The notes under the pieces were generated by a model. That model made no database searches, had not been told where the DNA came from, and worked only from the letters and a program-made list of their open reading frames with translations. The position numbers and the translations under genes are program-made. Positions 26,601-43,585 of a stretch of DNA of 64,000 bases are shown piece after piece. Position 1 is the stretch's first letter; every line of letters begins with the position of its first letter. Source of the DNA: Ailanthus altissimus (lineage: Eukaryota; Streptophyta; Magnoliopsida; Sapindales; Simaroubaceae); NCBI GenBank assembly GCA_946807835.1, contig OX327684.1:15710501-15774500 (forward strand), in the 5' to 3' direction.

Positions 26601-26754
26601 GTCTTTTATTTTTTGCTTCCATTATTTATATTTATGTTTTATTTTATGTTAATTTTATGTTATTTATTGATTTTAGAGTCAGTTGTATAACAGGAAAAGC
26701 AAAAGTTAATAATATGACTTTTTTTTGTATTTTTTCATTCTTTGTTTGTATGTT

Positions 26755-28318
26755 TGATGAACACATGAAAATCTATATTTATTAAGAGATTCATTCACTA
26801 TTTAATGTCACTAATTTTAGCATTTTTGTACTTTTAGCTTGAAATAAAGTGTTCTCCTTAAATTGTGATTAATGAATGTTATTTGCACAGGTTTAGGTAA
26901 AATACATATAACTCTCAATGTAAAAATCAAAATAAAGAAATTCTTAAACTTGGAGTAATATGACTCAATCTTACACAAACTTGAAGAACAGTGAAAAAGC
27001 CAAATCCAACATGTTATGGGCCAAAACTTGAGATACAATAGAATCGGGCTATAACTTCTACCCAGCTTGACCCAACTCATGTATTTGGACTGTATATCAC
27101 CAAATACGTACTCAATTGGTATAATTCTTAAAGATGTGAAATACTGACTTAATTATTAATAACTCTTATGTTTATGGTAAAGTCCAAATCAGCCGTTATC
27201 ATGGACCAAATTGCATTGCAAGTGGCTAAAATGATTGTTGGCCGAAATCTGATGTATCTTTAAATTTTTGCACATATTGCATTGGATACTCATCCAATTT
27301 GCATGAACTTGGTGCCTATGGAAACGAGACAAAATGATACAACTTTTATGTCGGCTATAGAGACTACATCGATCATTTACATTATAAAAAATGTGCTGCA
27401 AGTGGGTGAACGAGTTATTGGCCTAAAATTATTAAAGATTAATGTCACACATGACATATTTCTATTCATTGCCTATATAAGGAGACTCTTAGGACGTTTT
27501 CAACATTAGATAATTCTTTCTTCTTTTTTTCTCATTAATATGTATTGTAATTTGGTTAGAGTTCTTGGCAAGGCTAAGAGATGAACTTTTATGTATAATA
27601 AATCTACTTCTATACTTTGATTCGTTGTTAACAGTTACAAATGTTTGTAAATTTGGTTTTGATTAAGCTCTTATCTATTTTATTTTCTATAATCTAGAGG
27701 TTATAATTCTCATGTCTCATATATATTCAGTCATACCTTTCTTATGTGATTCTTGTTGAATTATAATTGTTATTGGTTACATTATTTTATATGTTATTCT
27801 TTTACTGCAATATTGTCGATTGATATATTGTCAATTTTGGATAACATATAAAGACAATAAATATTTGATATTCAAGTTGATCTTCTACTGCAATATTGTC
27901 AAAATGATATATTGTCGATCTTATACAACTTGTATAAATGAACATGATTTGTGTTAATATTTGCAAAAGAGTTTAGTTATATCAAATGCATGTGTTATCA
28001 AATGTGTTATATTTTACATATCTTTCGATTGATTGTTTAGATGTAAAACTGTCAATTGAGTTATAAACATTGAATTAAAGTATAGAGTAGATTTATAAAG
28101 CATAATTGTAATTCTCGAAGCCTTGTTTAAATCATCATAAGACATTTTTCTCAATTCATAGACAATTCTATCTCATCCACTTAAACCAATTAATTAATTT
28201 TCTCATTTGCTACTGCTTTAATATTTTACTTCACCAACCTATTTTGTCAAAAGCTTCCTCATGGGATCGACACATCAATCTATACTACTATAGTCGCGTT
28301 ATATTTTGAGCATAAATA
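26755..28318 (+). repeat. 5' LTR of element C
   Basis: Starts TGATGAACACATG and ends CATAAATA (mutated from GTAAACA in D), 1564 bp, almost the same length as the 1562-bp LTR at 29292-30853, to which it is the inverted copy. Divergence from D is visible by eye throughout, so C is older. Confidence 0.9.
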
Positions 28319-28323
28319 AAATT

Positions 28324-28340
28324 TAGCGTTGTTGCTGGGG
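28324..28340 (+). promoter_or_regulatory. Primer binding site of element C
   Basis: TAGCGTTGTTGCTGGGG, five bases after the LTR end, corresponds to TGGCGCCGTTGCCGGGG (tRNA-Asp type) with four transition-type changes. Confidence 0.8.
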
Positions 28341-29098
28341 AGGCACACTAAGCGAAAGTCGGTTGCGTTTATCATTATTAAAGCTGTAACTTTATACATT
28401 TTCTTTTCTTTGTAAAATCTTGATTTTATTTTTTTTTGTTGTAATTCATTTTATTGTTTATGGTTGGTTCTACCACCTAATTTATTTTATTTTCTTTAGT
28501 TAATTTGTTATATTTTATATTATTTTAATGACTGATTTTACCGTCTAACTTAGTTCATTTTTTTTATTTATTTACTGTACTTTACACTTTATTTTCTTTT
28601 GTTTATTTATCACTCTTTACTTTTTATTTATTTATTATTGTACTTTACTTTTTTTTAAAGTTAATTTGTCGTATTTTATTTTATTTTAATGGTTGGTTCT
28701 ACCGCCTAATTTAGTTTTTTTTTATTGCACTTTTTTTTTTAGTTAATATGTTAAGTTTTTTTATTTTAATGGTTGGTTTTACCGCTTAATTTTTTTTATT
28801 TACTTATTGTACACTTTTTTTTATTGTATTTTATTTTATTTATTTATTGTACTTTGCATTTTATTTTTCTTTATTGTACTTTCTTTTCTTTTATTTACTT
28901 ATTGTACTTTTTATTTATTTATTTTTTGTACTTTTTATTTATTTATTTTTTGTACTTTTTATTTATTTATTTATTGTTCATTTATTGTATTATATTTTAT
29001 GGTTGGTCTTATCACCTAACTTATTTATATTTCTTGTTGTGTTTTAGTTTACTTCTTAATTTCCTTGAACATTTCCTTATTAAAAACAAAAAAAACAA
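28341..29098 (+). repeat. T-rich leader of element C with a repeated GGTTCTACCGCCTAA-like motif
   Basis: Untranslated leader between PBS and gag. A motif like ATGGTTGGTTCTACCGCCTAA occurs five times (28461, 28528, 28689, 28769, 28999), separated by TTTATTTATTGTACTTT-type low-complexity sequence that expands into a small tandem array at 28850-28980. The element D leader carries five copies of the same motif. Open frames here are low-complexity Phe/Leu/Tyr strings and not genes. Confidence 0.7.
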
Positions 29099-29286
29099 TT
29101 GTTAGGATATATACATCGATTTGGAGACAAACGAGGGAGATTTCTGAGAGAAGTAGAACTAGAACCATCACCACAATTTGTAAGGGAAGAGAATTCATCA
29201 TCTAGTTCATCTTGTAATTCTAACACAATGAGCCAACACGAAGATAACACCGTTAGGACTCTAAAAGATTACTTGCATCCTATTCG
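29099..29286 (+). pseudogene. gag N-terminal part of element C, split by element D
   Basis: About 60 codons matching the start of D gag: DKRGRFLREVE, SSSSCNSNTMSQHE and TLKDYLHP are shared. The frame is broken after HPIRT by the D insertion at 29287-29291 and resumes on the other side of D at 41212 (TPSCIIFP-like text). D therefore inserted into C after C was already present. Confidence 0.9.
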
Positions 29287-29291
29287 CACAG
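29287..29291. repeat. Target site duplication of element D, left copy
   Basis: CACAG directly before the D LTR terminus TGTTTACGC; the identical CACAG follows the other terminus at 41207-41211. Confidence 0.9.
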
Positions 29292-30853
29292 TGTTTACGC
29301 TCAAAATATAACGCGGCTATCGCAGTATAGATTGAGGTGTCGATCCCACGAGGAAGCTCTTGGCAAAATAGGTTGATGAAGTAAAATATTAAAGCAGTAG
29401 CAAAGGACAAAATTAATTGATTTAAGTGGATGAGATAGGATTGTCTATGATTTGAAGGAAATGTCTTATGATAATTCAAACAAGGCTTCGAGAATCACAA
29501 TTATGCTTTATAAATCTACTCTACACTTTGATTCAATGCTTATAACTCAATTGAAAGTTTCACATCCCAAACAATCAATCGGAAGATAGGAAAATATAGC
29601 ACATTTGATAACACATGTATTTGACGTAATTAAACTCTTTGCAAGCATTAACATACATCATGTTCATTTATACAAGTTATCTAAGATCGAAAATATATCA
29701 CTTTGACAATATTGCAGTAAAAGATTAACTTGAATATCAAACATTTATTGCCCTTACATGTTATCCAAGATCAACAATATATCAAATTGACAATACTGCA
29801 GTAAAAGATTAACATATAAAATAATGTAACCAGTAACAATTATAAATCAACATGAATCACATAAGAAAAGCATGACTGAACATATATGAGACATGAGAAT
29901 TATAACATCTAGATTATAGAAAATAAAATAGATAAGAGTTTAATCAAAACCAAACTTACAACATTTGTAGCTCTTGACACCGAATCAAAGCATGAAAGTA
30001 GATTTATTACACATAAAAGTTCATCTCCTAGCCTTGCCAAGAACTCTAGCCTAAATTACAATACATGTTAATGAGAAGAAAATAAGAGAGAATTATCTAT
30101 TTTTAAAAACGTCCTAAGTGTCTCCTTATATAGGCAATGAATGGACATATGTCATGGATGACATCAATCTTCAATAATTTTAAGCCAATAACTTGTTTAT
30201 CCACTTGCAGCACATTTTTGATAATGTAAATGACCGTTTTAACTTCTACAGCCGACATGAAAGTTGTAGAATTTTGACTCTTCTTTCCATAGGCACCAAT
30301 TTCATGCAAATTGGATGAGTATCCAATGAGAAATGAGCAAAATTCCAAAGATACATCAGAATTCGGCCAACAACCATTTTACCCACTTGCAATGCCATTT
30401 GGTCCATGATAACGGTTGATTTGGACTTTACCATCAACATATGAGTTATTGATAGTTAAGTCAGCAATTCACAGCTTCAAGAATTATACCAATTGAGTAC
30501 GTATTTTGTGAGATACGGTCTAAATACGTGAGTTGGGTCAAGCTAGGCAGGAGTTGTAGTCCGATTCTGTTGTATCTCAATTTTTGGCCCATAACATGTT
30601 GGATTTGGCTTTTCCACTATTCTTCAAATTTGTGTAAGATTGAGTCATGTTGCACTAGATTAAAGAATTTCTTCATTTTGATTTCTACATTGAGAGTTAT
30701 GTCTATTTTACCTAAACCTGTCCAAATAACATTCATTAATCACAATTTAAGGAGAACACTTTATTTCAAGTTAAAAATACAGAAAATACTAAAATTAGTG
30801 ACATTAAATGGTGATTGAATCTCTTAACAACATGCATTTTCATGTGTTCATCA
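29292..30853 (-). repeat. 3' LTR of element D
   Basis: 1562 bp. On the minus strand it starts TGATGAACACATG at 30853 and ends GCGTAAACA at 29292. It keeps about 375 bp (roughly 29905-30280) that are deleted from the 5' LTR. It is the inverted counterpart of 26755-28318. Confidence 0.92.
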
Positions 30854-30866
30854 CAGCCCCCAACCA
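30854..30866 (-). promoter_or_regulatory. Polypurine tract of element D
   Basis: Minus strand GGTTGGGGGCTG lies immediately 5' of the 3' LTR start TGATGAACA. This is the expected place for plus-strand cDNA priming. Confidence 0.7.
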
Positions 30867-32227
30867 GCTTTTTGTTAGCCTCTAACAATTCAAGCGTAAA
30901 TAGAATATGTAAAACTACCTAAGCATTTCAATCAAAACGTCAGTTCGAGATCACTATTGCTATCATGGTTTTTTTAATTACAACTTCCATAATTTGTGTG
31001 TGTGTGAACTAAGCCATAACCATCTAACCACAAACCACAATAGATATAGCCTTGAGAATTTCTCCAAGTAAAAGCCTCAACTCCATATCCTCACAGGTGT
31101 ATGGCTGTTTAAAAGGTTGGGACTTCTCTTATAGAGTTGGAAAACAGTTAAGCACTCAAGAAAAAGTCAATTTTAAGGACAGACATATAAACTAACATTG
31201 ATCCAAAGATAGGAAAATTATTTGTTTAAAAATTAATTATTCATATCATACGCCAGCTTTAGAACTTTAATTGGCTTGTGAGAATAATACAATTATAATT
31301 TGGTGAGAAAACTGTTTTATAAAATATTTGTCTTCTAAAATTGAATGAAGATTTTATTAAACTGAATTGCTTCTTTTTTTTTTTTGGTATTTTTGCTCTT
31401 TTTTTTTTTTTAGTATTTTGCTCTTTTTTTTTTTTTGTATTTTTGAAGAATACAAGGAAGCATTACAAAGGTTTCTCACCAAATTACATTATACACAAAT
31501 GCAACCAACTTATACCTTAATTCAAATAATATCATTCTAAACAAAAATTAACCAATTCAAATGATCAATGAAGGTTCATAAGCTGTTTTCTCAACCTTTC
31601 CACTTACTCACAAAATATATGTGAGATTTAGAAAAATATATACTTAAACATGAAAATTCTCTTGGCTATATAAATTGAATCATCCTATTACCACAAGGCT
31701 TAGTATTGTGTTTAAAAATATTTTGAAAGTCATTCTTTAGTAACCTAGATAGAAACAGTGACTCAACATAAACAATTCTGAAATCATACTTAGGCAGAAA
31801 AGTAAATTCTTTTATACAAGAATTACCGAGACTACAAGCAGTAAATGACAATGCATGAAATATAAAATAAAATAACAAAAAGTTAGTTAAAATGCATTTC
31901 AAAAGTTAGTACTAAAACTCCTTACTCTGCCATTCTAATTTGACCTAGAATGCGTCTCAAGAGTTCAAGAATGAACTCTTTACTCTGCCATTTTAATCAA
32001 ATGTCGGATCACAATTGTTTTTTTTTTTTTGCAAAATGCAACGTATGTCTACTATCCTCCCTCCAAACCAGATGAAACATTGTCCTCAATGTTTAAATAG
32101 AAAGAGATAAAGTATAGGAGACATTACCTGAAATGCCAGTTATTTGAAAGAAACAAACATGGGAGACACTTAAGCAAATATAAACTAAAATGATGATACT
32201 AATAAATAAATAAATAAAAAGAAAAAT
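30867..32227 (-). other. 3' untranslated segment of element D with A-rich tracts
   Basis: No gene recognised. Three A-runs (minus strand) in tandem lie at 31374-31436, each about 13-15 bases and separated by GAGCAAAAATACC-type spacers. A further A13 run lies at 32018-32030, about 200 bp after the LOG-like stop codon. Bases 31915-31995 hold an imperfect direct repeat (CTCYTTACTCTGCCATTYTAAT, twice) around ATGCGTCTCAAGAGT, a string also present in the Cys-rich ORF at about 33289. The open stretch 31902-31666 starts with a hydrophobic run but has no homolog I know. Confidence 0.5.
32018..32030 (-). repeat. A13 tract 3' of the LOG-like gene
   Basis: Run of 13 A on the minus strand, 198 bp downstream of the LOG-like stop. 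Its place and orientation fit a relic of a poly(A) tail from a captured mRNA, but A-tracts are common in this DNA. Confidence 0.35.
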
Positions 32228-32822
32228 TTACAAACGAAGTGTCAGATCTAATTTTCGCTTGTTAAGGCCCACTGACCAATCAATCCGAGTTATTGCTGGG
32301 TCAAGTTCGTAGGTAACTGCCTGTAATTTGTTAATCAATTCATCCGCCTCAGTAGCAGAAATCAAGATCTGTCGCGCTGAATGTGAAATAAAATTCTGTT
32401 CCACAGCTTGATCAAGAAAACAAAGTAAGCAATCAAAATAGTTATCAACATTCAACAAACCTATGGGTTTTCGGTGGATATTCAGTTGGGCTCAAGAGAC
32501 AATTTGAAAATTTTCTTCCAAGGTACCAAAACCACCTGGTAAAGCAATAAAAGCGTCTGCATTACAAAGCATTCTAGCTATATGTTCATGCATGGATGAG
32601 ACTCGTAATTCTTCCCCTATTGTTTTCCCGGTCAGGTTTCCCACGGCCAAAGCTGTAGGAATAATACCTAAAACTTGACTTCCTCCTAAATGTGCAGCTG
32701 TTGACACATACCCCATTAGCCCAAGGCTGCCTTCTCCATAAATCAAATGAATTTTTCTTGTAGCTAATGCTTTTCCTAGATTGTTTGATATTTCGAAATT
32801 GTCGAACTTGGGTTTCCTCCAT
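32228..32822 (-). pseudogene. LOG: LOG-like cytokinin riboside 5'-monophosphate phosphoribohydrolase, captured in element D
   Basis: LOG enzymes release active cytokinin bases from their nucleotides in the cytosol. From a start at 32822, after an early frameshift, the text reads LGKALATRKIHLIYGEGS (LOG: the GGGSVGLMG nucleotide loop, here GEGSLGLMG), GIIPTAL, SMHEHIARM, ADAFIALPGGFGTLEE (the lysine-decarboxylase-like family signature PGGxGTxxE at 32539-32513), then HRKPIGLLNVDNYFDCLL and FISHSARQILI. It covers about 195 codons against 210-225 in plant LOGs; the N-terminal VFCGSS strand is missing. Defects are a frameshift near codon 5 and a Trp-to-stop TGA just after FQIVS. No introns, unlike host LOG genes. 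In the family's MHQRKAEM helix the Arg-Lys is His-Ile, so activity is doubtful. A TATA box lies 53 bp upstream of the start. Confidence 0.88.
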
Positions 32823-32874
32823 ATCTACACTCACCTTTATCTCAATATATGAAAATGAAGAAAATGAGGTGCTG

Positions 32875-32882
32875 TATTTATA
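32875..32882 (-). promoter_or_regulatory. TATA box upstream of the LOG-like gene
   Basis: CTATAAATA on the minus strand, a consensus plant TATA box, with the first ATG of the LOG-like frame 53 bp downstream. This is the spacing expected of a short-leader promoter. Use as a promoter is inference. Confidence 0.5.
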
Positions 32883-33137
32883 GAGTACCAAATGATAACA
32901 ATGATTATGGTAACCCGACAGTTTGTCAAAAGAGAGTTAAAAATAAAACACAAAAATTTAAACATAATGACCTACATGCATTATTGAACTAAAAGATTTG
33001 AATTTAAGACATCTACATGAGTAGCCCTACTATTCATAAAATAAAGTTTGAAATTAAAACACATGTATTTACAAGTAGTTGTGATTGTGGCTCACATCTT
33101 CCTCTGGTTTTACGTCTTGTAACGGCTTAAACGCCTT

Positions 33138-33686
33138 TTATGGGTCGGGGATAGGCTTTCCATCCAATTTTCTTATAAATTGGCAAACATGGTCTTTTAG
33201 AGTCAGATTCCCGAGACTATACCGTTGATGTTCATTTTTGAATTTGTTCCACAAATCGAGAAGTTCACGTTGCATGAGCCCACAGGGATGCGTCTCAAGA
33301 GTCAATAGGATATCATCCAAAGACTCCTTACTCAGTCCATCCTTAATGAACTGAATTTTGTCTTCTCGATTTCTAGATGCGAATCCTAAAGAATGACAAC
33401 TCCGATTACAATTCCATCGAGCACATTTATGACAGACTTGTAACCTTTTTCCTCGTCGCCTTTTGACATAAGAGCTTCTTCTAAGACCAGGCATATGAGA
33501 AACAAAATCATTTTCAAACTCACCAAACAACCGAACCTTGGCTTCAATTAACCAACGAAGGTCCACAAGGATATTACCCAACACCAATAACCTTAGTCTT
33601 TCACACCGTGCTTTGTAAATCTTAAGTAGAGCATTTTGAGGCAATGAAGGAAAACGTTTTTTAAGGTTGGCAAGGATGCGATCCAT
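33138..33686 (-). CDS. Unknown Cys-rich basic protein encoded by element D
   Basis: Intact ORF of 182 codons if started at MDRILANLKKRF (33686); an upstream ATG at 33752 would add 22 residues with no relation to the rest. Pyrimidine-rich leader just before the ATG. Residues 73-82 are strongly basic (KRRRGKR). A Cys/His cluster CHKCARWNCNRSCH occupies residues 85-98 (CX2CX4CX3CH), which suggests zinc and nucleic-acid binding. The C-terminal part is helical and acidic-basic mixed (LSKESLDDILLTLETHP). No membrane segment or signal peptide, so it is not an envelope protein. It lies after integrase, in the position of the Athila second ORF, but does not resemble Transposase_32. I do not recognise the family. 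It is the only long ORF of D without a stop or shift, which hints at function or recent capture. Confidence 0.6.
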   Translation of the reverse strand: MDRILANLKKRFPSLPQNALLKIYKARCERLRLLVLGNILVDLRWLIEAKVRLFGEFENDFVSHMPGLRRSSYVKRRRGKRLQVCHKCARWNCNRSCHSLGFASRNREDKIQFIKDGLSKESLDDILLTLETHPCGLMQRELLDLWNKFKNEHQRYSLGNLTLKDHVCQFIRKLDGKPIPDP

Positions 33687-33752
33687 TTTGAAAGAAAGAA
33701 AAGAGATGAATGCACAGTTTGAGGGACAGTTTTTAGAGAACTGAGAAACCAA

Positions 33753-33934
33753 CTTTAATAGTCACGGAGTACCGTATCCGCCACTTGACCGGAAAATAAA
33801 ATCACACTGAAGAAAAAATAAAAAGAAGAAAATAAAATAAAATAAAATGTGCAAGAAAATAAAAGCAAAAATAAAAAGTCAAAAGATAAAATATAGACAA
33901 AATATAAAATATGGTACAGATAGATTGAACCTGA
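33753..33934 (-). other. Spacer between integrase and the Cys-rich ORF
   Basis: Low-complexity T-rich (minus strand) stretch, then GGTACTCCGTGACTATTAAAG about 60-85 bp before the Cys-rich ORF start. ACTATTAAAG could act as a weak TATA element. A GGTACTC string also precedes the TATA box of the LOG-like gene. Confidence 0.3.
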
Positions 33935-34985
33935 TCAATCATGATAGACAGGATCCATAAGAGGGATCTCGCCTAGGTACAAAGAGTCGTCTACCTTTTC
34001 CACGTTGCTTTTTAGCCGTTGTCCATTCACTTTGAAAGTCCGTCCATCAGTGGGGTCTTCTATTTCAACAGCACCATTAGAAAAAACATGTCTTACCATA
34101 AATAGACCAGTCCATCGAGATCTCAACTTTCCAGGGTGTAAATGCAATCGAGAATCATAAAGATAGACCCGTTGATTTAGCTTAAAGTGTTTCCTTAAGA
34201 TCTGTTTATCACGAGCTACTTTCATTTTAGCTTTGTAAATTCTGGAGTTTTCATATGCGTCATTTCGTAGCTCTTCTATTTCTGACAATTGTAACTTTCT
34301 CTAGAGACCTGCAGCATTCAAATCAAAGTTAAGGGCTTTGACAGCCCCATAAGCTTTATGTTCTAGCTCAACAGGTAAATGGCAAGCTTTCCCATAAACA
34401 AGCCGGTATGGAGACATTCCTAAGATGGTTTTGTATGCAGTGCGATATGCCCATAATGCATCAGAAAGGCGTAGAGACCAATCTTTGCGATTTGGGTTAA
34501 CTGTCTTTTCCAAAATCTGTTTAACCTCTCTATTTGCTAGCTCGGCTTGTCCATTTGTCTGTGGATGGTATGCAGTGGAAACTTTGTGAAGAACACCATA
34601 CCTGCGCATCAAAGCTTTAAAAGAACGATTACAAAAATGTGTTCCTTGGTCACTAATGATGACACGTGGCGTACCGTACCTAGATAACACATTTTCTTTT
34701 AAGAATTTTACCACAGTTGTATTATCATTAGTACGACAAGCTACAGCCTCCACCCATTTTGATACATAGTCAACAGCTAAAAGGATGTAAAGATAGCCAA
34801 AAGATGAAGAAAAATAACCCATAAAATCGATACCCCAACAGTCAAATATCTCGATAATAAGAATAGGGTTAAGAGGCATTATATTTCTTCGAGATAAAGC
34901 ACCTAACTTTTGACATCTTTCACAGGAACGACAAAAATTATTAGTGTTTTTGAACAAAGTGGGTTAATAAAGACCACACTGTAAA
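33935..34985 (-). pseudogene. Integrase of element D
   Basis: Integrase inserts the cDNA. The HHCC zinc domain starts in the preceding frame ([15 protein letters not shown]) and ends CRSCERCQ in the 218-codon stretch 34957-34301. The DDE triad there is D44 (WGIDFMG), D103 (ISDQGTHF) and E139 ([12 protein letters not shown]), with 35 residues between the second and third, as is standard. The C-terminal domain (34288-33935, 117 codons) has YDSRLHLHPGKLRSRW and ends at TAG. Two stops interrupt the domain: one in the zinc finger (LY*PTL, Trp expected) and one after NAAGL, where element C has CAA. No chromodomain is visible. Confidence 0.92.
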
Positions 34986-36733
34986 ATTTTCACAGCTGTC
35001 TTCTTCATAGAAAAATGGCCACCGCAAACAGCACTATGGAAAAAATTTAAGACACTAGAAACTTCACTTTCAGGAATGCAACGTCTCATGATTTGGTCAG
35101 GACAGTATTTGAAAAGATATAGATCATCCCAATAAAAATTAGGTACCTCAACCAAGAACTTACGCTTATCTTGTGCACTCCAGTCAGATGGAAGTTTACC
35201 ACAAACCAAATAATTTACGATATGTGCATACCAAGGTATTTGGCTTATAGCAAAAAGATGTTCATCCGAAAAATCGTCTCGAATGGGTGGCAATTCAGTG
35301 GAGTCAGTGAACTCAAGGCGAGATAGATGATCAGCAACAACATTTTCAACGCCTTTCTTATCTTTGATGGTTATATCAAATTCCTGCAAAAGAAGAATCC
35401 ACCTAATTAAACGGGCTTTAGCATCTTTCTTAGAAAGAAGGTACTTAAGGGCTGCGTGGTCAGTAAAAATAACAATAGGTGAACCAATCAAATAAGAACA
35501 AAATTTATCTAAGGCAAAAACAACAGCTAATAGTTCTTTTTCAGTAGTAGTGTAATTCATTTGAGCATCATTCAAAGTCCTACTAGCATAATAAACAACA
35601 AAGGGTTTTCCCTCCCTCCGTTGCCCAAGAACTGCTCCTACAGCATAATTATTTGCATCACACATAATTTCAAATAGGAGGTTCCAATCCGGTGATTGCA
35701 TAATAGGAGAGGTGGTGAGTTTGGCAATGAGTGTTCGGAATGCCTCCTCACACTCTTGTGTCCATGTAAATTCTGCATCTTTTACCAAAAGGTTACACAA
35801 TGGTCTAGATATGGCAGAAAAATTTTGTATAAACCTTCTGTAAAAGCCAGCGTGTCCAAGAAAGGGTTGGACATCTTTTACCATTTTAGGTGTAGGTAAT
35901 TTAGAGATTAATTCAATTTTTGCCTTGTCAACCTCTATCCCTATTTCAGATACAATGTGCCCTAAAACGATTCCTGAAGATACCATGAAATGACATTTCT
36001 CCCAATTTAGCACAAGTCTTTTTTCTTCACACCTACTCAAAATAGATTTCAAGTTAAGTAGGCATAAATTAAAAGAATTACCAAAAATAGTCAAATCATC
36101 CATAAAGACTTCCATGCATTTTTCAACCATATCAGAGAAAATACTCAACATGCAACGCTGGAAAGTAGCTGGTGCATTACATAATCCAAATGGCATTCTA
36201 CGAAAAGCATAAGTACCAAAAGGGCATGTAAAAGTAGTTTTTTCTTGATCTTCTATAGCTATCTCAATCTAGTAATACCCTGAATACCCATCAAGAAAGC
36301 AATAAAAAGGATGTCCAGCTACACGTTCTAAAATTTGGTCAATAAAAGGCAATGGAAAATAGTCTTTCCTAGTGGTTGTGTTTAACTTTCTATAATCAAT
36401 ACACATTCTCCAACCACTTACTACCCTAGTTGGAACAGGTATCCCATTCTCATTTTCAACAACAGTAACCCCAGATTTCTTAGGAACTACTTGAGTTGGA
36501 CTTACCCATTGATTATTAGAAATTGGGTAAATTATACCCGCATTTAATAGTTTCAAGACCTTTTTCTTCACTACTTCTTTCATTGTTGGGTTAAGTCTTC
36601 TTTGTGGGTCTCTACGAGGTTGGGCACCTTCCTCTAAATGAATTCTATGGGAGCATATCAATGGAGAAATACCTTTAATATCAGCTATGGTCCAACCTAG
36701 TGCAGACTTATGTTCTTTTAACAATTTTATCAA
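34964..36733 (-). pseudogene. Reverse transcriptase and RNase H of element D
   Basis: RT copies the RNA genome and RNase H degrades it. Frame 36733-36269 has the RT entry: LLNAGIIYPISNNQWVSP, VVPKKSG, WRMCIDYRKLN and FLDGYSGYY. A single stop (36268, Gln expected) separates it from the rest in the same order. The 410-codon stretch from 36196 holds [13 protein letters not shown], catalytic FMDD (36106-36095), [18 protein letters not shown], then RNase H with [39 protein letters not shown] and [13 protein letters not shown] in place of YxDD is common in the Athila/Tat branch. Nearly full-length domains; only scattered stops spoil it. Confidence 0.93.
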
Positions 36734-36934
36734 TTTTACCTCCTATTCAGCACTAAGTTCAGAAGAAATGATGATAGGAAAGGTATCACCTGATCTCAAG
36801 AATGCGTGTTTCAAACATTTGGGCAGTTGAGAAAGCTCAACTTGTGGTGTCTCGAGGTTTGATGGTTTCGGTCTCTCCCTCTCTCGTGGCAACTCTTCAA
36901 AGCGTGGCTACCAAAATTAAGTCCCTTTATCCTG

Positions 36935-37876
36935 TTAGTCAAAAATACTAAACACATCAGTTGTTACATCAGGATAATACAATTCTTCAAAATCAAAATT
37001 AAGAAGGTTTTTCGAAGAATCATAGCCATAATTTTTATAAGCTTCCTCTGCTACAAGTGTGTCTATCATATATGAATGATAGCACTCGTCTTCTTCTCGT
37101 GGTTGTTTGCCAATGTTGAAAATGTTCACCTCAAGAGTCATATTCCCAAAAGATAATTTCATTAGACCATTTCTGCAATGAATAAGAGCATTAGCAGTGG
37201 CTAGAAAAGGTCTCTCCAAAATAAGAGGGATTTTTGACTCCATGTTAACAACAGAATGAGTATCTAAAACAAAAAAATCAACAGAGTAGTAAAATTTATC
37301 AATTTGCAACAATACATCTTCTACTATTCCCCGTGATTTCTTGATTGATCGGTCAGCTCATTGTAGGACTACAGATGTTGGTTTAATCTCACCAAGTCCC
37401 AATTACAAGTAAATAGAATAAGGCATTAAATTTACACTTGCTCCTAAGTCCAATAAAGCTTGACCAAACTCATGTGTCCCAATTTGGCAGGAGATTATGG
37501 GACATCTTGGGTCTTTATACTTGGGTGGTGTCTTTTGTTCAATCACTGCACTTACCTGTTCTGCCAAAAATGCAGTTTTCTTCACATAGTATTTTCTTTT
37601 GATAGTGCATAAATCCTTGATGACTTTGGCATAAGTTGGAACCTGCTTAATCAAATGTAACAAGGGAAGATTAATTTTAACTTGTTTCAAATGTTCTAAA
37701 ATCTCACCTTGAATTTCTGAATTTTTCTCAACCGGTCGAAGAGCTTGAGGAAAAGGCACTGGGATTGAAAACTTACTTTCGGGCTCTTTTTCCACTTTGG
37801 CCTCTTTTTCAAAAGGGGCATCTTTACTACTCATAGATATGTTAATTTCAGGAGTAGACTCACTTACAATCTTACC
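36935..37876 (-). pseudogene. Aspartic protease region of element D
   Basis: The retropepsin-like protease cuts Gag-Pol. The stretch 37834-37403 begins with a charged linker and contains PVPFPQAL, KINLPLLHLIKQVPTYAKVI and the active site ALLDLGASVNLMP (D at about 37448-37450). A stop after YSIYL (TAA, where element C has CAA) interrupts it. The stretch 37312-36935 continues with DFFVLDTHS and PLILERPFLATANALI, the second half of the fold. Further stops lie before and after this stretch. Confidence 0.88.
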
Positions 37877-37879
37877 ACT

Positions 37880-39347
37880 TCAAGTAGTAATGGCATTGAC
37901 TTCTTTGAAATTTTGAACATCAGAAGTAGAAGCTTGTGCCATGAATTGTCCCTTTGGATTGGATTGAGGTTGAGATGAAAACTTACCTCGCTCTTGTACA
38001 GTTAAGGCACTGGTCAACTTTGTGATTTGACTTTTGATTTCTTTGTTTTCGTCTACCACCTGTGCAAGAATTGTTTCAAATTTTTTATTAGTCTTACTTT
38101 GTGCCTCCATAAATGCTTGTAATGTATCCTCTAAAGAACTTCTAGTTGGTCGTGCATTATATTGAGGTGCAACATAAGACTTGGGTGCTTGTTATTCTTG
38201 TTTCCACTGGTTGTTGGCTTGTTGGTCAGATTTCCAACTAAAATTTGGGTGGTTTCTCCAGCTAGGATTATATGTTTCAGAATAGGGTGAATAAGGCTTC
38301 TTGTACATCCCTAGGGCATTACATTGTTCCTCATATATCCCTCTCATCTCACTATAAGTGGGGCAATCCTGAGCTAAGTGTTCCGCTCCTCCACAGACAA
38401 AACAGAAATCGTGTGACTCAACTCTAGCAACCGTGTGGGTGACCCTTCTATCTTTGGTTTTCAAGGCCTCTAACTCCCTAGTTAAGACCTCTAATTGGGC
38501 TTTGAGGTTATCCTCTTCCCTAAGATGGAAAACTTCATTGGGTCGTGACCTATTTGTGTTTTCAGTAATGCTAGGTCCAGTCCATGTATGGGCTTTTTCG
38601 GCTAAGTCATTAAGGAATTCTATGGCTTCCTCGGGATCTTTGTAAAGGAACTCCCCATTACACATCATCTCAACAAATTGGCGCTCTCTAATTGTGAGTC
38701 CTTCATAGAAATAACTAACCAAACACCAATTTTCATACCCATGGTGAGGGCACAGATTTAGCAACTCTTTAAACCTTTCCCATGCTTGATATAAGGTTTC
38801 ACTGTCTTTTTGGGAGAAAGAAGAAATTTTTCTTTTCAGGCCATTAGTTTTGTGTTGTGGGAAGTATTTATTTAAAAATGCTTGGGTCATTTCTGCCCAA
38901 GTTCCTATAGACCTCGGCCTCAAAGAGTATAGCCAACTTTTTGCTTTGTCTTTCAAAGAAAAATTTAAGTCTAACAGTGTCTATGGCTTCAGGTTGGCTA
39001 TGGAAGGTGGCAATTACCTCTTCAAATTCCCTAACATGTACATAAGGATTTTTATTATCTAGACCATGAAAAGTGGGAAGAAGTTGTATCATTCCAGATT
39101 TAATATCCGAATGTGGTGTGTTAGGTGAAAATATAATGCATGATGGTGTGGCTGTGCGAGTAGGATGCAAGTAATCTTTTAGAGTTTTAACGGGGTTTTC
39201 TTCGTGTTGGCTCATTGTGTTAGAATTACAAGATGAACTAGAAGGTGAATTCTCTTCACTTAAAAATTGTGGGGGTGGTTCTCGTTCTAGTTCTCTCACA
39301 AATCTTTCTCGTTTGTCTCTAAGTCGATCCATACATCCTAACAACAA
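37880..39347 (-). pseudogene. gag of element D
   Basis: Capsid/nucleocapsid protein. Starts MLLGCMDRLRDKRERF at 39347. The N-terminal half is open to about 38900, where a small deletion in a T-rich run (after VRLKFF) shifts the frame. It continues in 38956-38192: DKAKSWLYSLRPRSIGTW, NKYFPQHKT, LYQAWERFKELLNLCPHHGY, and a zinc knuckle CFVCGGAEHLAQDC (CX2CX4HX4C, 38404-38363). A stop after NNQWKQE precedes a last 76-codon stretch (38110-37880) with ETILAQVVDENKEIKSQI (coiled-coil-like) and NAITT, where the expected TLRSGK linker has Arg changed to stop. Confidence 0.92.
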
Positions 39348-39977
39348 TATATATATATTTTTTTAAGGAAAGAAATGCTTAAGGAAAATTAAGAAGTGGA
39401 ATAAACACAACAAGAAATAGAAATGAGTTAGGTGGTAAGACCAACCACGAAATATAAATACAATAACTAAACAAAAGACTGTAAAGTACGGAAAAAAAAG
39501 TACAATAAATAAATAATAAAAAGAAAATACAATAAGTAAATAAATAAAAGGTTAGGCAGTAGAACCAGTCATTAAAATAAAAAGAAAATACAACATATTA
39601 ACTAAAGAAAATAAAGTGCAATAAATACGTAAAAGAAAATAAAAATAAAGTACAATAAATAAATAAAAGAAAGTGAACGAAGTTAGGCGGTAAAACTAGC
39701 CATTAAAAAAAGTGCAATAAATAAACTAAAGAAAATAAAGTGGGTTAAATAGATAAAAGAAAATAAACTAATTAGGCGGTAAAACCAGCCATTAAGATAA
39801 TATAAAATATAACTAATTAACTAAAGAAAATAAAATAAATTAGGTGGTAGAACCAACCATGAATAATAAATAAATTACAACAATGGAAATAAAACTAAGA
39901 TTTTACAAAGAAAAGAAAATATACAAAGTTACCACTTTAGTATTTGTAATCGCAACCGACTTTCGCTTAGTGTGCTT
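39348..39977 (-). repeat. Leader of element D with five repeats of the GGTTCTACCGCCTAA-like motif
   Basis: Between PBS and gag. Motif copies on the minus strand lie at 39840-39860, 39772-39793, 39683-39703, 39552-39573 and 39428-39449, spaced by A/T-rich TATTTATTGTAC-type sequence. Number and arrangement match the element C leader. An AT microsatellite sits at 39348-39362, next to the gag start. Confidence 0.7.
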
Positions 39978-39995
39978 CCCCGGCAACGGCGTCAA
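39978..39995 (-). promoter_or_regulatory. Primer binding site of element D (tRNA-Asp type)
   Basis: TGACGCCGTTGCCGGGGA on the minus strand, five bases (AAATT) after the LTR end. It matches the complement of the plant tRNA-Asp(GUC) 3' end, TGGCGCCGTTGCCGGGGA, with one G-to-A change. Confidence 0.9.
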
Positions 39996-39999
39996 ATTT

Positions 40000-41206
40000 T
40001 GTTTACGCTTAAAATATAACGCGGCTATCGCAGTATAGATTGAGGTGTCGATCCCACGAGGAAGCTCTTGGCAAAATAGGTTGATGAAATAAAATATTAA
40101 AGCAGTAGCAAAGGACAAAATTAATTGATTTAAGTGGATGAGATAAGATTGTCTATGATTTGAAGGAAATGTCTTATGATAATTCAAACAAGGCTTCGAG
40201 AATCATAATTATGCTTTATAAATCTACTCTACACTTTAATTCAATGCTTATAACTCAATTGAAAGTTTCACATCCCAAACAATCAATCGGAAGATAGGAA
40301 AATATAGCACATTTGATAACACATGTATTTGATGTAATTAAACTCTTTGCAAGCATTAACATACATCATGTTCATTTATACAAGTTATCTAAGATCGACA
40401 ATATATCACTTTGACAATATTGCAATAAAATATTAACTTGAATATCAAACATTTATTGCCCTTACATGTTATCCAAGATCGACAATATATCAAATTGACA
40501 ATACTGCAGTAAAAGATTAACATATAAAACAATGTAACCAGTAACAATTATAAATCAACATGAATCACATAAGAAAGCATGACTGAATATATATGAGACA
40601 TGAAAATTATGTCTCATATATGAGACATGAGAATTCTTTCCATAGGCACCAATTTCATGCAAATTGGATGAGTATCCAATGAGAAATGAGCAAAATTCTA
40701 AAGATACATCAGAATTCGGCCAACAACCATTTTACCCACTTGCAATGCCATTTGATCCATGATAACGACTGATTTAGACTTTACCATCAACATATGAGTT
40801 GTTGATAGTTAAGTCATCAATTCACAGCTTCAAGAATTATACTAATTGAGTACGTATTTTGTGAGATACAGTCCAAATACATGAGTTGGGTCAAGCTGGG
40901 CAGGAGTTGTAGTCCGATTCTGTTGTATCTCAATTTTTGGCCTATAAAATGTTGGATTTGGCTTTTCCACTATTCTTCAAATTTGTGTAAGATTCAGTCA
41001 TGTTATACTAGGTTCAAGAATGTCTTCATTTTGATTTCTACATTGAGAGTTATGTCTATTTTACCTAAACCTGTCCAAATAACATTCATAAATCACAATT
41101 TAAGGAGAACACTTTATTTCAAGTTAAAAATACAGAAAATACTAAAATTAGTGACATTAAATGGTGATTGAATCTCTTAACAACATGCATTTTCATGTGT
41201 TCATCA
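40000..41206 (-). repeat. 5' LTR of element D, with internal deletion
   Basis: 1207 bp. It aligns with the 3' LTR end to end except for about 375 bp missing at about 40610-40635, where a short filler repeats the neighbouring TATATGAGACATGA words. Elsewhere the two LTRs differ mainly by transitions. The element must have inserted with a full LTR, so the deletion is later. Confidence 0.9.
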
Positions 41207-41211
41207 CACAG
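41207..41211. repeat. Target site duplication of element D, right copy
   Basis: CACAG, identical to 29287-29291. Removing D and one CACAG rejoins the C gag frame as in D gag. Confidence 0.9.
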
Positions 41212-42240
41212 CCACACCATCATGTATTATATTTCCACCTAACACACCACATTCGGATTTTAAACCTTGAATGATACAACTTCTGCCTACTTTTCATAGT
41301 CTAGATAGTGAAAATCCTTATGTACATGTTAGAGAATTTGAAGAGGTAATTGCCACCTTCCATAGTCAACCCGAAGCCATAAACACTGTTAGGATTAAAT
41401 TTTTTCCTTTTCTTTGAAACACAAAGCAAATAGTTGGTTATACTCTTTGAGGCCGAGATCTATAGGAACTTAGGCAGAAATAACCCAAGCATTTTTCAAT
41501 AAATACTTTCCACAACACAAAACTAATGGCCTGAAAAGAAAATTTTCTTTCTTCTCCCAAAAAGATAGTGAAACCTTATATCAAGCATGGGAAAGGTTTA
41601 AAGAGTTGCTAAATCTGTGCCCTCATCATGGGTATGAAAATTGGCGCTTAGTTAGCTATTTTTATGAGGGACTCACAATTAGAGAGCGCCAATTTGTTGA
41701 GATGATGTGTAATGGGGAGTTCCTTCACAAAGATCCTGAGGAAGCCATAGAATTTTTTAATGACTTAGCCGAAAAAGCTCATACATGGACTGGACCTAAT
41801 ATTACTGAAAGCACAAATAGGTCACAACCCAGTGGAGTTTTCCATCTTAGGGAAGAGGATAACTTCAAAGCCCAATTAAAGGTCTTAACTAGGGAGTTAG
41901 AGGCCTTGAAAACCAAAGATAAAAGGGTCACCCATACGGTTACTAAGGTTGAGTCACACGATTTTTGTTTTCTCTGTAGAGGAGCAGAACACTTAGCTCA
42001 GGATTGCCCTACTTATAGTGAGATGAGAGGGATATATGAGGAACAAGGTAATGCCCTAAGGATGTACAAGAAGCCTTATTCACCCTACTCTGAAACCTAT
42101 AATCTTAGTTGGAGAAAGCACCCAAACTTCAGTTGAAAATCTGACCAACAAGTCAACAGCCATTGAAAACAAGAACAATAAGCACCTAAGTCTTATATTG
42201 CACCTCAATATAATGCACGACCAACCAGGAGTCCTTTAGA
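41212..42240 (+). pseudogene. gag of element C, right part
   Basis: Continues the gag begun at 29099. Early part degenerate (41212-41600). The open stretch 41606-42136 holds LNLCPHHGYENW, RERQFVEMMCNGEFLHKDPE and a zinc knuckle CFLCRGAEHLAQDC (CX2CX4HX4C). A stop after PNFS (TGA, Trp expected) and further breaks follow. Closely similar to D gag but with an independent set of defects. Confidence 0.9.
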
Positions 42241-42300
42241 GGATACATTACAAGCATTGAGCCTACTTTTGAAACTAACACATCTACGAGTAGTAAAGAC

Positions 42301-43250
42301 GCCCTCATTGAAAAAGAGGCCATAGTGAAAAAAGAGCCCAAAAATAAGTTTTCAATCCCAGTGCCTTTTCCTAAAGCTCTTCGATCGGTTGAAAAACATT
42401 CAGAAATTCAAGGTGAGATTTTGGAACATTTGAAACAAGTTAAGATTAATCTTCCCTTGTTGCATTTGATTAAACAGGTTCCAACTTATGCCAAAGTCAT
42501 CAAGGATCTATGCACTGTCAAAAGAAAACACCATGTAAACAAAACTGCATTTTTGGCAGAACAGGTAAGTGCAATGATTGAACAAAAAACATCACCTAAG
42601 TATAAAGACCCAAGATATCCCACAATCTCCTGCCAAATTGGGACACATAAGTTTGGTCAAGCTTTGTTGGACTTAGGAGTAAGTGTAAATTTAATGCCGT
42701 ATTATATTTACTTGCAATTGGGACTTGGTGAGATTAAACCTACATCTTTAGTCTTACAATTAACTGACCAATCAAACAAAAAACCATGGGGAATATTAGA
42801 AGATGTGTTTGTTGTAAATTGATAAATTTTACTATCTTATTGATTTTCTTGGTTTAGAAACTCATTCTATTGTTAACATTGAGTCAAAAATTCCTCTTAT
42901 TTTAGGGAGACCTTTTCTTGCCACTACTAACGCTCTTATTAATTGTAGAAATGGTCTAATGAAATTATCTCTTAGGAATATGACTTTTGAGGTGAACATT
43001 TTCAATATTGACAAACAATCACGAGAAGAAGACGAATGCTATCATTCATATATAATAGACACACTTGTAGCGGAGGAAACTTATAAAAATAATGGCTCTG
43101 ATTCTTTGAAAAAATTTCTCAATTTTAATTTTAAAAAATTGTATTATCCTAATGAAACAACTAATGTGTTTAGTATTTTTGACTCACAGGATAAAGGGAT
43201 TCGATTTTGGAAACCAAGCATTGAAGAGTTACCACGAAAGAGGGAGAAAC
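42301..43250 (+). pseudogene. Protease region of element C
   Basis: Collinear with D: KINLPLLHLIKQVPTYAKVI, ALLDLGVSVNLMP (active site DLGVS instead of DLGAS), LQLGLGEIKP, then a frame break at about 42822 (VVN stop) and continuation through PLILGRPFLATTNALINC (about 42895-42945) and EEDECYHSY. Here the frame is open where D has a stop (YLQLG). Ends just before the pol deletion at about 43271. Confidence 0.88.
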
Positions 43251-43256
43251 CAAAAC

Positions 43257-43585
43257 CATCAAACCTCAAGACATCACGTGTCATCATTAGTGACCAAGAA
43301 ACACATTTCTGTAACCGTTCTTTTAAAGCTTTGCATGCTGCAGGTCTTCAAAGAAAGTTACAATTGTCAGAAATAGAAGAGCTACGAAATAATGTATATG
43401 ACAACTCCAGAATTTATAAAGCTAAAATGAAAGCAGCTCATGACAAACAGATCTCAAGGAAACATTTCGAGCCAAATCAATGGGTCTATCTTTATGATTC
43501 TCAATTGCATTTACACCCTGGAAAGTTAAGATTTAGATAGACTGGTCCATTTATGGTAAGGCATGTTTTTCCTAATGGTGTTGTC
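43257..43585 (+). pseudogene. Fused remnant of integrase in element C after two deletions
   Basis: The frame runs from the protease-RT linker (KPKPSNLKTS) straight into the integrase core [19 protein letters not shown], so all RT, RNase H and the first half of IN are missing. A second jump leads into AAGLQRKLQLSEIEELRNN, then HLHPGKLRFR and a stop (TAG, Trp expected). Junctions at about 43271-43280 and 43328-43336 show 3-4 bp microhomology when compared with D. The sequence stops in FMVRHVFPNGVV at the foldback terminus. Confidence 0.88.

Follow-up and report, generated by a model that had tools for sequence, protein, structure and literature searches.

We found that a LOG-family gene lying inside an LTR retrotransposon of Ailanthus altissimus is, almost certainly, an integral and selected accessory gene of the element family. 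The stretch of DNA analysed (the window) comprises 64,000 nt of assembly GCA_946807835.1 (OX327684.1:15,710,501-15,774,500, forward strand).

The LOG-bearing element, D (29292..41206, minus strand), was identified as a Ty3/gypsy LTR retrotransposon by Pfam matches and by self-comparison of its LTRs. The LTRs begin and end with TG...CA, and the element is bracketed on both sides by the target site duplication (TSD) CACAG (29287..29291 on the left, 41207-41211 on the right). Read along its own strand (minus), D starts with a 5' LTR (40000..41206) that has lost about 0.38 kb internally and is adjoined by a primer-binding-type site, TGACGCCGTTGCCGGGGA (39977..39994). This is followed by gag and neighbouring ORFs (37403..39362; PF03732 and a weak zinc-knuckle match below cut-off), by part of pol (33935..36742; RT, RNase H and integrase in a single frame with three internal stops), by the two accessory ORFs described below, by the polypurine tract GGTTGGGGGCTG (30854..30865) and by the 3' LTR (TGATGAACAC...GTAAACA; 29292..30853). 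The LTRs, the CACAG duplication, the polypurine tract and the primer-binding-type site confirmed that the LOG gene resides inside D, as the initial annotation had stated. The two LTRs differ at 46 of 1207 sites (K2P 0.039), which, at a rate that we take to be 1.3e-8, places the insertion at about 1.5 My. We presume the primer-binding-type site to be of the tRNA-Asp type, which would fit the putative Athila-like identity of D. The Athila ORF-1 domain PF03078 gave no match in the nine ORF pieces that were scanned; this is weak evidence against an Athila identity because, according to the accessible text of PMC6317226, the domain occurs in only 16% of Athila elements.

D is itself inserted in a relative on the opposite (+) strand, the halves of which flank it at 26751-29291 and 41207-43584. 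The match of this relative to D stops at the end of integrase, so that its own accessory region is not recognisable. Rfam snoR71 (RF00097) matched at 38736-38842 (+, 68.3 bits) and at 41528-41634 (-, 70.4 bits), each antisense within a gag ORF, the first in D and the second in its opposite-strand relative; either gag DNA of retroelements has been taken into RF00097 or gag harbours a snoRNA.

The LOG gene of D (32228..32822, minus strand), located between integrase and the 3' LTR, is broken: the coding sequence for its LOG-family protein is split by one TGA into two open pieces. Both pieces matched PF03641 (E 4e-17 and 1e-11), and the closest solved structures for both were Arabidopsis At2g37210 and At5g11950, which we take to be LOG3 and LOG8, respectively. 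These matches bear out the family assignment made at first sight, and together with the LOG-like predicted fold they ruled out chance similarity or a different Rossmann family. The initial annotation had also described one frameshift and one TGA. The TGA stands, at the position of a conserved Trp. What was read as a frameshift is a net loss of 53 bp close to the 5' end, a deletion that takes away the first strand and the phosphate-loop region; in 37 of the 39 other copies found by the DNA search described below, the match is broken in two at this gap, with about 53 bp intervening. The catalytic Arg of the window copy is replaced by His. A tblastn search of the window for a second LOG found none (next best match, E 0.40).

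The genome holding the window (939 Mb, 37 contigs) was searched with the LOG DNA and with an Arabidopsis-type LOG protein. In the DNA search the best 40 of 1951 candidates were scored; one was the window copy itself, and the other 39 matched at 96-97% identity. The protein search scored the best 150 of 5682 candidate places, all matching as a single block with 51-53% identity; an internal stop was present in 12 of these and absent from 138, a ratio skewed to intact genes because the best-scoring places were taken. The copies split into two divergent subfamilies, A (that of the window) and B, and the set analysed further consisted of the window copy, 38 of the remaining 39 A copies and 30 B copies. 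LOG was uninterrupted in 26 of the 39 A copies (window included) and in 23 of the 30 B copies, giving 49 of 69 in a sample which favours intact copies because top-scoring ones were chosen; the gene noticed in a single element thus proved common to other copies of the family and often intact. All 49 uninterrupted copies end in LDLTLRL or IDLTLRL when checked without a tail filter, and one of the 26 A copies has a His in place of the catalytic Arg.

Comparison of LTR pairs in five A and three B copies showed 0-2 mismatches over 360-2245 aligned bp (99.6-100% identity); in three of the A copies the match was limited to 360-451 bp of the 5' LTR region, and a fourth A copy belongs to a tandem pair that shares an LTR. 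TSDs were readable in, and flanked, four LOG-bearing copies. The near-identity of the LTR pairs and the readable TSDs indicate that the family moved very recently. At C3:33582750-33596100, two LOG-bearing A copies lie about 10.8 kb apart on one strand with a shared LTR, forming a tandem array, and a similar spacing was observed at C1:28385083 and 28395936.

Purifying selection on LOG between copies, a point raised by the initial annotation, was evident from the comparison of the two subfamilies. The median dN between A and B was 0.228 and the median dS 1.733, giving a dN/dS of 0.132 (range 0.119-0.151), while that of the neighbouring NABP-like ORF was 0.204 (NG86, 15 random pairs of intact copies per gene; the set of 49 LOG ORFs was picked with a tail filter). 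The gag-pol part of one A and one B copy gave 0.153 at a dS of 2.9 over 749 codons, so that LOG appears constrained like the element's own genes, to be read with caution because dS is high. The NABP-like ORF compared with that of contig L001, described below, gave a dN/dS of 0.217 at a dS of 0.91; the RNaseH-integrase comparison with L001 and three of the four pol blocks were saturated and yielded no value. Variants among the A copies showed only weak constraint. LOG singletons comprised 33 nonsynonymous, 22 synonymous and 3 stop changes (neutral expectation of N/S, 2.30), variants present in two or three copies comprised 11, 4 and 5, respectively, and NABP singletons, with 57 nonsynonymous and 21 synonymous changes, were near neutral (2.36). 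These variants are too few and too young, which gives this test little power.

When placed in a tree of LOG proteins, the element-type sequences formed a single separate clade, containing 61 of 61 in one thinned set (support 0.985) and 24 of 24 in another (UFBoot 100). The sister of this clade (UFBoot 100) consisted of two Xanthoceras sorbifolium proteins, P0003 and P0036, which keep the host-type Lys and Glu discussed below, have no LxLxL tail and may represent a stem or donor stage. The stem branch of the element clade is long (0.79), its nearest host LOG type is LOG7 with weak support (66) and, in the tree with a bacterial outgroup, the element clade and the Xanthoceras pair lay outside all other host proteins. 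The intronless LOG was likely captured as a processed transcript, in an old event.

Named hosts of element-type LOGs, among the best 120 of 3233 hits, were Diplodiscus, Reevesia, Melia, Populus and Paulownia, and in Reevesia and Diplodiscus the clusters of these LOGs were many and spread over many chromosomes. Location in an element was deduced from copy number for most of the other hits; three were also placed in elements by a contig of the same size with an NABP match (8723, 4511 and 2128). Two element-type proteins, P0065 and P0082, carry the database name LOGL10 as host genes of Populus trichocarpa and P. nigra, and these are probable misannotations of retrotransposon genes.

We then compared the substrate pocket of 119 element-type proteins, i.e. 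the best 120 of 3233 hits plus P0001 and minus the two Xanthoceras proteins, the genomic context of most being deduced, with that of 118 host proteins from the best 120 of 7999 scored. Positions follow the numbering of CgLOG, the LOG of C. glutamicum, as given in the accessible text of PMC4979012. Lys100 was retained in none of the 119 element-type proteins, being replaced by Met (52), Ile (41), Leu (25) or His (1), and Glu125 was likewise replaced in all of them, by Gln (75), His (41), Gly (2) or Arg (1), while both residues were retained in 118 of 118 host proteins. The catalytic residues were largely conserved in the element-type set, Arg99 in 111 and Glu122 in 118 of the 119. H97 of the pocket was also replaced in 66 of 119, and this loss, with variation at other pocket positions, makes a generally relaxed pocket possible.

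The replacement of the adenine/prenyl-pocket residues Lys100 and Glu125 in all 119 proteins makes canonical substrate use doubtful, and it speaks against the earlier suggestion that the element LOG frees active cytokinin. In CgLOG, Lys100 is among the adenine-site residues, and Ala at 'these crucial residues' almost abolished activity, except for S19A, with the residues that were substituted singly shown in a figure only (PMC4979012, accessible text).

The second difference between element-type and host LOGs lies at the C terminus, which in the window copy reads KRKLDLTLRL (32231..32260, minus strand), a basic stretch followed by an EAR-type LxLxL tail. LxLxL occurred within the last 12 residues of 106 of the 119 element-type proteins and in none of the 120 of the host set (here including the two Xanthoceras proteins), and a basic cluster preceded it in 104 and 1, respectively. 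Several of the 13 element-type proteins without LxLxL are truncated or one residue off. In 105 full-length element-type proteins, Lys at -10 and Leu at -5, -3 and -1 were retained in 102-104, after a variable linker; these proteins were picked by a tail-like ending and the Leu figures are partly due to this selection. LxLxL is an EAR-type motif and recruits TOPLESS. The AlphaFold model of the element LOG was LOG-like (pLDDT 84) with residues 202-215 below 50, and the tail is thus predicted to be disordered and exposed. The model aligned to 2a33 with a TM of 0.93 (target-normalised) or 0.76 (query-normalised), and the LOG/lysine-decarboxylase-like fold, PF03641 and the PGGxGTxxE motif are present.

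Directly upstream of LOG we identified an open ORF of 182 codons that had been missed in the first reading (33138..33686, minus strand; PF05515, PF01623). It is cysteine-rich, of the carlavirus nucleic-acid-binding type, and is designated NABP-like. In the 40 copies where neither ORF is disrupted, the NABP-like and LOG ORFs are direct neighbours on one strand. The NABP-like ORF had 558 relatives at E 0.001; among the 120 listed, many of which represent more than one member sequence, the named plant hosts were Xanthoceras, Populus, Acer and Rhamnella. Among eight chosen relatives, all eight exceeded the Pfam cut-off for PF05515 and seven that for PF01623, P0122 scoring 33.8 bits against a cut-off of 23 and 28.5 bits against 20.9, respectively, while the window copy stayed below the PF05515 cut-off (21.0 against 23). 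At 0.001, PF05515 matched 16 and PF01623 matched 14 of 22 members.

The NABP-like protein and the carlavirus cysteine-rich proteins share a basic stretch directly before a four-cysteine motif, but the spacing is C-x2-C-x4-C-x3-C in the former and C-x2-C-x12-C-x4-C in the latter (viral spacing from the accessible text of PMC8839810). Unlike the viral proteins, the NABP-like protein, 182 aa in length, has a C-terminal half that is long, conserved and its own, and it is borne by an LTR retrotransposon. According to the same portion of PMC8839810, carlavirus cysteine-rich proteins suppress silencing and determine symptoms, and one of them is linked to a host transcription factor and to cell proliferation. 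The AlphaFold model of the NABP-like protein (pLDDT 55) was too poor for a fold search. Scans of viral contigs for DNA context, three with proteins or profiles and one with a pattern, gave no confirmed relative. The NABP profile scan of genome contigs returned a single contig, L001 (DAIEQH010000041.1), from a Candidatus Nomurabacteria MAG; its 3330 bp hold RNase H and integrase sequences together with an NABP-like ORF, all resembling those of plant retrotransposons, and it is probably plant DNA contaminating the bacterial MAG. No LOG ORF was present in the 983 bp between the NABP-like ORF and the end of this contig, so that NABP may predate LOG.

The DNA between the NABP-like ORF and LOG was mostly poorly alignable between A and B apart from two islands. 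The first is a TATA box, CTATAAATA (32875..32883, minus strand), kept in both subfamilies; among copies with both ORFs intact, it precedes the LOG ATG by 61 nt in A (21 of 21) and by 73-74 nt in B (19 of 19). Its conservation points to a promoter of LOG's own, from which the gene is probably transcribed.

The second island, an ultraconserved stretch (33071..33212, minus strand), takes in the final 24 codons and the stop of the NABP-like ORF and runs on for about 67 bases. The stop and the 67 bases following it differed at 1 of 70 positions between A and B and at 3 of 70 between A and L001. Codons for the same residue differed at 1 of 24 (A-B), 2 of 23 (A-L001) and 1 of 23 (B-L001) within the last 24 codons, against 41 of 114, 46 of 119 and 44 of 117, respectively, upstream. 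A 27-base core occurred 1221 times in the genome (585 + 636), counted irrespective of LOG, while the reversed control gave 0. No Rfam family was found for the stretch, the only two matches (E 2.7 and 3.4) being far below cut-off; its folding surpassed that of shuffled sequences by no more than a modest margin (z -1.85 to -2.08), and the longest complementarity to it within D was 11 bases. Read-through of the NABP stop was considered and rejected: 22 codons of open frame follow it in A and L001, but the few substitutions are not restricted to third positions, which favours constraint at the RNA level. We infer that the stretch may serve as a packaging, export or splicing signal.

The family of D, large and recently active, thus has two accessory genes in sense orientation after integrase and ahead of the 3' LTR, the NABP-type gene first and the LOG-derived gene second, and both are shared by the divergent subfamilies and under selection. 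We propose the following roles for them. The LOG protein would have kept its fold and catalytic Arg and Glu while its base pocket was re-tooled, and could thereby bind or hydrolyse a nucleotide other, or less specific, than cytokinin riboside monophosphate. The basic and LxLxL tail would take the protein to the nucleus and to TOPLESS-type co-repressors. NABP and LOG would together form a host-manipulation module, acting on transcriptional state, RNA silencing and cell proliferation, that might favour transposition in dividing or germ-line cells. Own transcription, nuclear action via the tail and altered substrate use are what we infer for the LOG protein. A nuclear mechanism through the EAR-type tail and the altered pocket is plausible from the sequences, although we put it forward tentatively, and the motif LxLxL, being short, could have another role. 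We hold with greater doubt the wider reading of a virus-like module, in which a carlavirus-type zinc-finger protein (a possible silencing suppressor or transcription factor) would be paired with a nuclear EAR-tagged LOG whose pocket accepts a new nucleotide (e.g. a modified AMP or an immune nucleotide signal), with its own promoter and with the ultraconserved RNA as a cis element.

The changed pocket makes it less likely, though possible, that the LOG of the element functions as a cytokinin-activating phosphoribohydrolase, which would provide more active cytokinin and promote division of the cells where the element is active. The LOG fold, PGGxGTxxE, the conserved catalytic Arg and Glu and the strong purifying selection agree with this activity, as does the resemblance of the neighbouring protein to a viral class with one member linked to proliferation (PMC8839810, accessible text), but the loss of Lys100 and Glu125 in 119 of 119 proteins and the near abolition of CgLOG activity by Ala at adenine-site residues, S19A excepted (PMC4979012, accessible text), leave it unlikely. 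A non-enzymatic role, in which LOG binds a nucleotide as a SLOG-type sensor or sponge (e.g. of an immune signal) or is a dimeric scaffold for the EAR-type tail, would explain why the pocket is altered while fold and tail are conserved; we consider it unlikely, and the catalytic residues, with Arg retained in 111 and Glu in 118 of the 119 proteins, would not be expected in a pure scaffold. That LOG is a neutral passenger, a functionless host cDNA copied along with the element, is very improbable. The window copy is broken and transduction of host genes by retroelements is known (PMC7264820, accessible text), but a dN/dS of 0.13 at a dS of 1.7 contradicts neutrality, the tail is conserved in hosts as distant as Populus, Reevesia and Paulownia, and the promoter and the NABP-LOG adjacency are conserved as well. 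A chance later insertion of LOG into D alone is refuted by the 39 other copies of the DNA search and the 150 places of the protein search that carry LOG across the genome, with TSDs flanking the four LOG-bearing copies where these are readable.

The presence of a LOG/YgdH domain in plant Gypsy elements is already known. Alvarado-Marchena et al. 2022 (PMC9289625), citing Steinbauerova 2011, report a YgdH domain in Gypsy consensuses of Citrus sinensis and C. clementina and, with a filter off, of Populus trichocarpa. This is the same LOG-type extra domain, and Populus element-type proteins are also among our hits; the accessible text of PMC9289625 describes the domain only and makes no mention of a switched pocket or an EAR-type tail, of a neighbouring NABP-type gene, or of the promoter, the ultraconserved stretch or selection. 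Element LOGs share the Rossmann-like fold, PGGxGTxxE and the catalytic Arg and Glu with the plant LOGs (LOG1/3, LOG7, LOG8), but differ in their separate clade (UFBoot 100), in the replacement of Lys100 and Glu125 and in the added LxLxL tail. The AlkB-type 2-ODD gene of Phalaenopsis Gypsy elements is likewise a host-type nucleotide/RNA enzyme fixed as an accessory gene of a Gypsy lineage, but it is a different enzyme, for which RNA demethylase activity was shown (PMC9289625, accessible text). Gene23 of maize Grande, cited in PMC7264820, is also an accessory gene between pol and the 3' LTR with its own promoter and a nuclear protein, but it is antisense whereas LOG and NABP are sense. According to the accessible text of PMC7264820, plant LTR retrotransposons often bear accessory ORFs of unknown origin. 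A large survey used eORFs 'of at least 250' (PMC6317226, accessible text) and could have missed the LOG and NABP-type genes if 250 refers to codons. Our literature search for NABP-type or suppressor-type genes in retrotransposons found no relevant report, and the accessible part of the 2025 Retand paper (PMC11963269) does not name LOG.

For each of the two accessory genes relatives can be recognised, a host hormone enzyme in one case and a plant-virus protein in the other, and this, together with purifying selection between subfamilies and near-identical LTRs, makes their role for the element testable in a living plant. The two element-type proteins named as host LOGL10 in databases call for caution on the part of annotators. 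If the proposed reading is true, the altered pocket and the EAR-type tail would represent a new use of a cytokinin enzyme. The pairing of LOG with a viral-type gene blurs the boundary between retrotransposon and virus, and with two extra genes, one hormone-enzyme-like and one RNA-virus-like, the element may manipulate its host cell.
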